Positions 2,504-51,867 of a DNA stretch of 64,000 nt are shown one piece after another. How positions within the stretch are numbered: the stretch's first letter is position 1; each line of letters opens with the position of its first letter. The stretch comes from Ignavibacteria bacterium (GTDB lineage: Bacteria > Bacteroidota > Ignavibacteria > Tepidaquicellales > Tepidaquicellaceae): the NCBI GenBank assembly GCA_019187405.1, contig JABAQZ010000006.1:234445-298444 (forward strand), given 5' to 3'. A program made the translations under genes and the position numbers. The notes below the pieces were generated by a model. That model worked only from the letters and a program-made list of their open reading frames with translations, searched no databases and was not told where the DNA came from.

Positions 2504-2525
2504 CTCTCAATCAGGAAATTGGGAG
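2504..2525. repeat. CTCCCAATC-type palindrome, left flank of the 56-bp array
   Basis: An imperfect copy (CTCTCAATC...ATTGGGAG) of a 22-bp palindrome seen again at 3539, 4905 and 5010. It is followed directly by GCGAGATGAAAA, which runs without a break into the first 56-bp unit. Confidence 0.75.
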
Positions 2526-3522
2526 CGAGATGAAAAATATTCCGTAGCGCAGGCTATTAGCCTGCGGAATTACAGACTAAGCAAGATGAAAAATATTCCG
2601 TAGCGCAGGCTATTTGCCTGCGGAATTAAAAACTAAGCAAGATGAAAAATATTCCGTAGCGCAGGCTATTAGCCTGCGGAATTACAGACTACGCAAGATG
2701 AAAAATATTCCGTAGCGCAGGCTATTAGCCTGCGGAATTACAGACTACGCAAGATGAAAAATATTTCGCAGCGCAGGCTATTTGCCTGCGGAATTACAGA
2801 CTAAGCAAGATGAAAAATATTCCGTAGCGCAGGCTATTTGCCTGCGGAATTACAGATTAAGCAAGATGAAAAATATTTCGCAGCGCAGGCTATTTGCCTG
2901 CGGAATTACAGACTACGCAAGATGAAAAATATTTCGCAGCGCAGGCTATTTGCCTGCGGAATTACAGACTAAGCAAGATGAAAAATATTCCGTAGCGCAG
3001 GCTATTAGCCTGCGGAATTAAAAACTAAGCAAGATGAAAAATATTCCGTAGCGCAGGCTATTAGCCTGCGGAATTAAAAACTAAGCAAGATGAAAAATAT
3101 TCCGTAGCGCAGGCTATTTGCCTGCGGAATTACAGATTAAGCAAGATGAAAAATATTTCGCAGCGCAGGCTATTTGCCTGCGGAATTACAGACTACGCAA
3201 GATGATAAATATTTCGCAGCGCAGGCTATTTGCCTGCGGAATTACAGACTAAGCAAGATGAAAAATATTCCGTAGCGCAGGCTATTAGCCTGCGGAATTA
3301 AAAACTAAGCAAGATGAAAAATATTCCGTAGCGCAGGCTATTAGCCTGCGGAATTAAAAACTAAGCAAGATGAAAAATATTCCGTAGCGCAGGCTATTAG
3401 CCTGCGGAATTACAGACTAAGCAAGATGAAAAATATTTCGCAGCGCAGGCTATTAGCCTGCGGAATTAAAAACTAAGCAAGATGAAAAATATTCCGTAGC
3501 GCAGGCTATTAGCCTGCGGAAT
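2526..3522. repeat. Tandem array of 18 palindromic 56-bp units
   Basis: Eighteen copies of a 56-bp unit in perfect register: the core GCAGGCT recurs every 56 bases from 2549 to 3501 with no indel. Each unit has a hairpin core (CGCAGGCT, loop ATT, AGCCTGCG) within CCGTAG...CGGAATTA, joined by CAGACTAAGCAAGATGAAAA linkers. Variants are confined to a few positions: TTCCGTAG or TTTCGCAG, CTATTAGC or CTATTTGC, ACAGACTA or AAAAACTA, and TAAGC or TACGC. The unit contains stops on both strands, and 56 is not a multiple of 3, so no frame stays open. It is not a CRISPR array because there are no unique spacers. Function is unknown; it may be an expanded REP-like palindrome. Confidence 0.95.
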
Positions 3523-3538
3523 TTGGATGCAGACTATA

Positions 3539-49084: not shown

Positions 49085-49714
49085 ATCTAATTTATTGATT
49101 ATTAACTTAACAATTTTGATTTTTACTTAACGTTTCTATTTTAAAATTACTTTGAAAAATGATTCTAGTTTTTTCCTCTGTAATTATTTCTTCTTAAAAT
49201 AGAATTTCAATATTCTCTTTACTCCCCAGTTTTCAGAATCTGGAAGTATTATTTGTCTATTAACAATTAAATTCTATTTGAATGGTAATGAGAGTTAGTA
49301 TGCTGCTGATGTATATAATATTTTAAAAGTTGGTTCTTATTCGAATATAAATTCTCTGTAAACATTTTAATCAGTTGTTGATAAGAAATCTGAAACTTTC
49401 TCTGTATTTTTTTAATATCAAATTATATAGGAATTTATGAAAAACATTCTCACTCCGGCAATCAAAACAATTGAATACTTTTAAATTTCTTTTTATCACT
49501 CATTTAGATTATTTAAAAAGATGCACCGGTATATTTTATACATTATACCCGCGCTAATGAATTTGAGGCTACTTCTAAAATTGAATATGGTTATTTCCTG
49601 CAGAATAAAAAATTTTATAGGTTATCTGAAAAAATGATTTTCAAACACAGAGAAGTTTATTAGGAAATTAAGAACTGCTACATTGATTTTGGATTCGATA
49701 GTTTAAATTCTTTC
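49085..49714. other. Degenerate non-coding stretch
   Basis: About 630 bp of AT-rich sequence with no ORF that can be supported, leading into the VOC relic. It looks like decayed coding sequence, but nothing in it could be assigned. Confidence 0.5.
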
Positions 49715-49918
49715 AGCTCCCATTTATAAAAGCAAATTGAGTATTCCCGATGATAAATACCGCGGGCTGGGGAAGATCTGATAAGTGTTTTGGATAAAAT
49801 TGAAAATGCCGAAGGTAAAATTATTCAACCGAAGACAAAAGTTACTGATGAAATAGGCTTTATACCAATATTCAAAGATACAGAAGGAAATAAAGTTGAC
49901 TTACATTCACCAAAATAG
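49715..49918 (+). pseudogene. Relic of a VOC (glyoxalase/bleomycin-resistance) protein
   Basis: The last 49 codons before TAG 49916-49918 read EDLISVLDKIENAEGKIIQP, KTKVTDEIGFIPIFKDTEGN, KVDLHSPK, the C-terminal half-domain of a VOC protein. A slightly earlier out-of-frame stretch (APIYKSKLSIPDDKY) fits the preceding strand. A stop and frameshift separate them and no N-terminus exists. Confidence 0.6.
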
Positions 49919-50189
49919 AATTATTTAACCTCTCTGTCTTGCTTAAATGATAGAGCTGATTCTAAGAGTAAGTATAAATGAATATAATTTTATGCTTTTA
50001 GTGATGCAACATTTATGTTGCGGAAGCAGTGATGCAACATTTATGTTGCTGAAGCAGTGATGCAACATTTATGTTGCCGAAGCAGTGATGCAACATTTAT
50101 GTTGCAGCAACAGTGATGCAACATTTATGTTGCAGCAACAGTGATGCAACATTTATGTTGCGACAACAGTAATGCAACATTTATGTTGC

Positions 50190-50333
50190 AACGAAATGCA
50201 GGTGCTGTTTAAAAAGTATGAATTACTTCTTTCCATATCCCATCTCAGGAAAAATTAAATTCAACTATCTATGTTTCTAAAACCGGACAGTTGTAAAGAG
50301 TAGTTCTCTCTTTGAGAACCTCGTTAAAATAAT
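50190..50333. repeat. 144-bp inter-block spacer, copy 1
   Basis: Starts AACGAAATGCAGGTGCTGTT, contains AAACCGGACAGTTGTAAAGA and the hairpin GTTCTC-TCTTT-GAGAAC, and ends TTAAAATAAT. Nearly identical to copies 2 and 3. Confidence 0.9.
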
Positions 50334-50461
50334 GCAACATTTATGTTGCGGAAAAAGTGATGCAACATTTATGTTGCAGAAGCAGTGATGCAACATTTAT
50401 GTTGCGGAAGCAGTGATGCAACATTTATGTTGCGACAACAGTGATGCAACATTTATGTTGC

Positions 50462-50605
50462 GACGAAATGCAGGTGCTGTTTAAAAAGTATGAATTACTT
50501 CTTTCCATATCCCAACTCAGGAAAAATTAAATTCAACTATCTATGTTTCTAAAACCGGACAGTTGTAAAGAGTAGTTCTCTCTTTGAGAACCTCGATAAA
50601 ATAAT
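50462..50605. repeat. 144-bp inter-block spacer, copy 2
   Basis: Same length and sequence as copy 1 apart from a few bases (CAACTCAG for CATCTCAG, CTCGATAAAA for CTCGTTAAAA). Confidence 0.9.
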
Positions 50606-50789
50606 ACAACATTTATGTTGCGACAACTGTAATGCAACATTTATGTTGTGACAACTGTAATGCAACATTTATGTTGCGACAACTGTAATGCAACATTTAT
50701 GTTGTGACAACTGTAATGCAACATTTATGTTGCGACAACTGTAATGCAACATTTATGTTGCGACAACTGTAATGCAACATTTATGTTGC

Positions 50790-50933
50790 GACGAAATGCA
50801 GGTGCTGTTTAAAAAGTATGAATTACTTCTTTCCATATCCCATCTCAGGAAAAATTAAATTCAACTATCTATGTTTCTAAAACCGGACAGTTGTAAAGAG
50901 TAGTTCTCTCTTTGAGAACCTCGATAAAATAAT
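50790..50933. repeat. 144-bp inter-block spacer, copy 3
   Basis: Same length as the others and almost identical to copies 1 and 2. The first core after it starts ACAAC, as after copy 2, so copies 2 and 3 were duplicated together with that unit. Confidence 0.9.
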
Positions 50934-51397
50934 ACAACATTTATGTTGCGACAGCAATAATGCAACATTTATGTTGCGACACCTGTGATGCAACATTTAT
51001 GTTGCGACACCTGTGATGCAACATTTATGTTGCAGCAACAGTGATGCAACATTTATGTTGCGACAACTGTAATGCAACATTTATGTTGCGACAACTGTAA
51101 TGCAACATTTATGTTGTGACAACTGTAATGCAACATTTATGTTGCGACAACTGTAATGCAACATTTATGTTGTGACAACTGTAATGCAACATTTATGTTG
51201 TGACAACTGTAATGCAACATTTATGTTGCGACAACTGTAATGCAACATTTATGTTGCGACAACTGTAATGCAACATTTATGTTGCCGAAGTAGTGATGCA
51301 ACATTTTTGTTGCGGTAAAAGTGATGCAACATTTATGTTGCGGAAAAAGTGATGCAACATTTATGTTGCGACAACTGTAATGCAACATTTATGTTGC

Positions 51398-51541
51398 GAC
51401 GAAATGCAGGTACTGTTTAAATAGTAAGAATTACTTCTTTCCAAATCCCATTTCAGGAAAAATTAAATTCAACTATCTATGTTTCCAAAACCGGACAGTT
51501 GTAAAGAGTAGTTCTCTCTTTGAGAACATCGGTAAAATAAT
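51398..51541. repeat. 144-bp inter-block spacer, copy 4 (divergent)
   Basis: Again 144 bp, but with about ten substitutions (GGTACTGTTTAAATAGTAAG, CCAAATCCCATTTCAGG, GTTTCCAAAACC, GAACATCGG). The GTTCTC-TCTTT-GAGAAC hairpin is unchanged. Confidence 0.9.
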
Positions 51542-51867
51542 GCAACATTTTTGTTGCAGCATCAGTAATGCAACATTTATGTTGCAACAACAGTAATGCA
51601 ACATTTATGTTTCGGAAGTAGTGATGCTACATTTATGTTGCAGCAACAGTGATGCAACATTTATGTTGCAGCAACAGTGATGCAACATTTATGTTGCCGA
51701 AGCAGTGATGCAACATTTATGTTGCGACAGCAGTGATGCAACATTTATGTTGCGACACCTGTGATGCAACATTTATGTTGCCCATTTTGAGTAAACTAAA
51801 ACCATTATTACAAAATATAGTATATTACAATCTACAAATTTTAATTCTAACTTCAACTCTTCTCCTC

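Follow-up and report, generated by a model that had tools for sequence, protein, structure and literature searches.

The window, a stretch of 64,000 nucleotides from an Ignavibacteria bacterium (GenBank assembly GCA_019187405.1, contig JABAQZ010000006.1, positions 234,445 to 298,444), carries at 50006-51781 an array of 45 copies of GCAACATTTATGTTGC. 34 copies are exact and 11 have one mismatch, while shuffled sequences give an average of 0.06 matches. The units follow one another at exactly 28 bp within five blocks (7, 5, 7, 17 and 9 units) and the jump from one block to the next is 160 bp. This confirms an earlier sequence-only reading that had described 45 palindromes in a 28-bp register and five blocks, and refines it by distinguishing exact from one-mismatch cores. 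All 45 units have the same orientation (head-to-tail) and an inverted partner is absent. The blocks are separated by four pieces of 144 bp each that share 94-99% mutual identity. The array is composed as follows:

50001 to 50189, plus strand: block 1, seven REP units (GTGAT or GTAAT foot followed by GCAACATTTATGTTGC) in 28-bp steps
50190 to 50333, plus strand: inter-block piece 1, 144 bp, with 94-99% identity to pieces 2-4 and homology to its counterpart in the sister array L023
50334 to 50461, plus strand: block 2, five REP units in 28-bp steps
50462 to 50605, plus strand: inter-block piece 2, 144 bp
50606 to 50789, plus strand: block 3, seven REP units in 28-bp steps
50790 to 50933, plus strand: inter-block piece 3, 144 bp
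50934 to 51397, plus strand: block 4, 17 REP units in 28-bp steps
51398 to 51541, plus strand: inter-block piece 4, 144 bp, differing at 8-9 positions from the other three
51542 to 51781, plus strand: block 5, nine REP units in 28-bp steps

GCAACATTTATGTTGC is a 16-nt palindrome. As single-stranded DNA it folds into a hairpin with a stem of 6 bp and TTTA as the loop (-4.9 kcal/mol, z = -2.8), and the hairpin that had been proposed for every unit therefore stands, although not at the proposed length of 7 bp. Taken as a whole, the 144-bp piece is not exceptional in structure (z = -1.4). Each of these pieces contains a small hairpin, GTTCTC-TCTTT-GAGAAC, that is preceded by GTA and might represent a second REP type. 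The lone gene neighbour of the array encodes a Thioredoxin_9 protein. Directly upstream, at 49400-50000, broken frames resemble the tail of a decayed gene, and a Pfam search with these frames gave no match. Nearby relics and a lone thioredoxin-like gene had also been recognized in the sequence-only reading. The array was absent from the loci of all 14 thioredoxin orthologues inspected in relatives and its position is therefore not conserved. As the gene order around these orthologues is not conserved either, a clean empty site is unreadable.

The array could be thought of as a structured or regulatory RNA, or as a set of sites that terminate transcription or serve as decoys. Eight terminator-like sites were found where 1.5 were expected, every one of them on the minus strand, and REPs of other bacteria have been proposed to act as terminators or mRNA stabilisers (PMC3733652). 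However, such a terminator-like score is expected of any palindrome array, the array position is not kept among relatives, Rfam gave no match in the window and promoter-like sites were at the level of shuffled sequence (16 versus 17). We therefore consider this explanation highly improbable, and the structured RNA suggested earlier finds no backing.

We found that the linkers are 12 bases long, as previously described, and that they terminate with GTGAT or GTAAT in 40 units out of 45. In each unit, a single spacer base thus separates a GT[A/G]N foot from the 16-nt palindrome. The foot tetranucleotides in the window are GTGA (22), GTAA (18) and ATAA (5), and the strict form GT[A/G]G occurs in none. 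The linkers had been described as falling into a few classes without unique information. We counted 17 types across 40 units, one of which occurs 15 times, and because the linkers carry the foot as their last five bases they are not informationless. A CT or CA dinucleotide, as present at known cleavage sites, precedes the foot in 35 of 45 window units and does not do so in the sister arrays; it was not used as evidence. REP elements are tiny DNA passengers whose copying is attributed to a partner enzyme, a RAYT transposase, and their foot is most often GTAG. A conserved GT-type tetranucleotide immediately 5' of a hairpin is the hallmark of REPs (PMC8266576; PMC3733652), and the strict GT[A/G]G foot is typical of them without being universal (PMC6006769). 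A CRISPR array would share the palindromic repeat and the near-constant step, but its unique spacers are absent here and the short linkers are repeated and foot-bearing. Together with the lack of any ORF of at least 80 aa within the array, this upholds the earlier description as a non-coding hairpin array that is not of CRISPR type.

The genome examined comprises 3.78 Mb in 38 contigs and holds 118 exact copies of the palindrome, all of them inside four arrays: 34 in the window, 27 at C6:85 kb, 17 at C6:99 kb (L023) and 40 at C15:38-41 kb. Dispersed single exact copies were not found in this genome. The foot lies at position -5 in 42/47, 21/21 and 58/59 units of the three sister arrays, which amounts to 161/172 when the window is included, and the GTAG form is present in L023 (4 units) and L024 (27 units). 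Each array has an inter-block piece of its own (144 bp in the window; 105, 142 and 196 bp in the others). Those of the window and L023 are homologous (91/145 identical positions, z = 9.9, reached by 0 of 500 shuffles), and those of the other two sister arrays bear no relation to that of the window. The three sister arrays advance in steps of 29 bp versus 28 bp in the window, indicating that the arrays do not preserve helical phase. This bears on the idea of a phased protein-binding lattice of partition- or iteron-like type in which a 28-bp period is selected for helical phase. Palindromic units at a strict period would suit such a lattice, and the sequence-only reading had raised it on these grounds. 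However, the different step of the sister arrays and the interruption of the blocks by pieces of 105-196 bp mean that phase is lost, and a search of plasmid and phage collections returned no match. We regard a lattice as extremely improbable.

A gene for a 221-aa HuH/Y1 protein (C6:98295-98957, minus strand) lies approximately 50 bp downstream of the L023 array and shares its strand. The NCBIfam model REP_Tyr_transpos (NF047646) matches the protein with E = 8e-15 and 55 bits, short of the cut-off at 80, and Pfam Y1_Tnp matches with E = 1e-4 and a score of 22.9 against a cut-off of 23. A profile built from 14 relatives matches the TnpA-REP structure PDB 4er8 at 1.3e-9, and the HuH pair H118/H120 as well as Y192 are invariant. 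The motifs NHVH and YIMNNP resemble those of subclass 2.4 or 2.7 of PMC6006769. RAYT genes are described as having inverted REPs on either side (PMC2817692); the C6 RAYT has its array on the upstream side only and downstream at best a decayed palindrome. The window itself contains no RAYT gene, so a link of its array to a RAYT would be in trans. The sequence-only reading knew of no protein family that binds the motif. We can now name a candidate, because a RAYT gene adjoins a sister array and the RAYTs studied so far bind REP DNA consisting of foot plus hairpin (PMC8266576).

The association of RAYT genes with foot-tagged hairpins extends beyond this locus. At 21 RAYT loci from our genome and its relatives, hairpin density is 4.16/kb within 400 bp of the gene versus 0.48/kb farther out, and 61 of the 68 near hairpins carry a GT-type foot. 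At 56 named RAYT loci the respective densities are 3.97/kb and 0.56/kb, with a foot on 139/176 near hairpins versus 29/84 far ones, and hairpins lie on both sides of the gene in 40 of these 56 relatives. Over the 77 loci together, hairpin density near the gene is 7-9 times that far away. When named genomes were scanned, the protein closest to the C6 RAYT (45% identity) came from a Chloroflexi MAG (L092). Its gene is flanked by GTACC-GCGACATTTATGTCGC, in which a single compensatory base-pair change distinguishes the palindrome from that of the window. Among 48 named loci, none but L092 came within three mismatches of the window palindrome. RAYT identity and palindrome similarity show a modest correlation when loci are treated as independent (rho -0.39, P 0.007).

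Within the order, foot plus palindrome was found in 2 of 44 genomes, namely this one and G004 of the same family. The exact palindrome occurs 18 times in G004, either singly or paired in the inverted REPIN arrangement, and a GTANN foot accompanies nearly every copy. These copies are dispersed, unlike those in our genome with their confinement to four arrays. A RAYT of the C6 kind was not found in G004, where other or partial Y1 genes are present and none of them lies near the palindrome. A palindrome match in G029 was dismissed as chance, as it lacks the foot and sits inside an apparent coding repeat. The sequence-only reading had proposed searching the genome and its relatives for the core and had taken a conserved position as a sign of function: the core does recur, in four arrays here and in G004, but the position at thioredoxin loci is not conserved.

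Neighbouring linkers are more similar than shuffled ones in the window (P = 0.0002), L022 (P = 0.003) and L024 (P = 0.002), the trace expected if copying is local and proceeds in unit steps; local homogenisation was not detected in L023 (P = 0.34). Unit-step growth, the copying of blocks together with their spacers and the similarity of neighbouring linkers all fit slippage. These features and the lack of a conserved array position might be taken for a neutral satellite, in which slippage and unequal exchange would have sufficed to duplicate a palindrome and the neighbouring RAYT would be a coincidence. Such a satellite, however, does not account for the conserved foot, for the presence of one palindrome in four arrays, for the RAYT beside one of these arrays together with the homologous inter-block piece, or for the compensated palindrome that accompanies the closest RAYT relative, which belongs to another phylum. 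We hold a purely neutral satellite to be improbable, while the slippage amplifier proposed earlier is still plausible for the growth of the array.

In our view the window array is very probably the REP cluster of a RAYT (TnpA-REP) system in this Ignavibacteria-class bacterium. Pure satellite, RNA and protein lattice each account for fewer of the facts than REP/RAYT does. By analogy with studied systems, the foot and hairpin would be recognized and cut as single strands by a HuH/Y1 enzyme. The candidate cognate enzyme is the C6 RAYT. Its gene adjoins one of the sister arrays of contig C6, and on the window array it would act in trans. Units would have been seeded at the window site by RAYT activity or by recombination with a sister array. 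The array would then have been enlarged in unit steps through replication slippage or unequal exchange, and whole block-plus-spacer segments may sometimes have been copied. A host function of the array need not be assumed.

The window array is therefore ordinary in kind, as a member of the REP/RAYT class, and unusual in form owing to its strict head-to-tail order. With known REPtrons it shares the foot-tagged hairpin, a RAYT gene that adjoins an array of the matching palindrome, a palindrome that tracks the RAYT in the nearest named relative, and REP copies elsewhere in the genome. In contrast to them, all copies here are head-to-tail in four big arrays without dispersed exact copies, the foot is GTRA more often than GTAG, and the array at the C6 RAYT is one-sided. 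Marinomonas REPtron Mb (group 3; PMC8266576) likewise has a perfect palindrome that is short, has TTTA as its loop and lies 1-2 bases past the foot, and its REPs cluster close to the gene. The two differ in palindrome length (12 nt versus 10 nt) and foot, and the likeness concerns REP features. The REPINs or BIMEs of P. fluorescens SBW25 and E. coli follow the same logic of REP and RAYT, and the inverted pairs of the window palindrome in G004 resemble them, but their unit is made of two inverted REPs whereas the window array has no inverted partner. REPs mostly occur as singles and inverted pairs, and head-tail dimers are absent or rare in most genomes (PMC3733652). In SBW25, evenly spaced tandem REP arrays of one type were reported at two positions, along with two mixed GI/GIII arrays of 12 (PMC3116915).

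Further head-to-tail arrays exist. A second RAYT of the same genome (L045, C7:149679-152909) scores 87.9 bits with the NCBIfam model, above the cut-off, and is flanked on both sides by head-to-tail REP arrays of GTAACACAGACTATCAGTCTGTG in 44-bp steps. The window harbors a second head-to-tail palindrome array at 2524-3523, made of 18 copies of GTAG-CGCAGGCTATTAGCCTGCG in 56-bp steps, which shares its hairpin apex with the REP arrays at the C7:151 kb RAYT and with an array at C11:144 kb. Head-to-tail palindrome arrays of short period also lie beside the RAYTs at L118 (25-26 bp), L163 (29 bp) and L079 (30 bp), demonstrating that single-direction short-period REP arrays occur beyond our genome. 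These three would fit a more far-reaching idea, which we put forward tentatively and consider rather unlikely: strict head-to-tail arrays might be a separate product of the C6 RAYT branch, which would cut at each foot and copy whole foot-plus-hairpin units, such that the period of 25-30 bp would reflect one cut-and-join step and not an accident of slippage.

As a separate observation, we came across RAYT genes that are situated in one open frame within longer host genes, most of them with flanking REP-like hairpins (L044 on contig C22 of our genome; L077, L079, L080, L144, L140, L139, L165, L131, L169, L150, L155, L148, L137 and L153). The hosting genes encode Eco57I-type restriction-modification proteins, MetH, class I tRNA synthetase, CarB, GcpE, HsdR, radical SAM proteins, Sua5 and adenosine deaminase. 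Three or more MetH genes in records of Verrucomicrobia type have the RAYT at a similar position. No description of in-frame RAYTs within host genes was found in the literature searched, and they may merit more attention than the window array.

For the array itself, a striking "mystery" satellite is assigned to a known class via its partner enzyme. The genome of this bacterium combines one RAYT with four arrays in two unit lengths and offers a clean natural test of how REPs multiply, to which a relative carrying the same palindrome in REPIN form (G004) adds.
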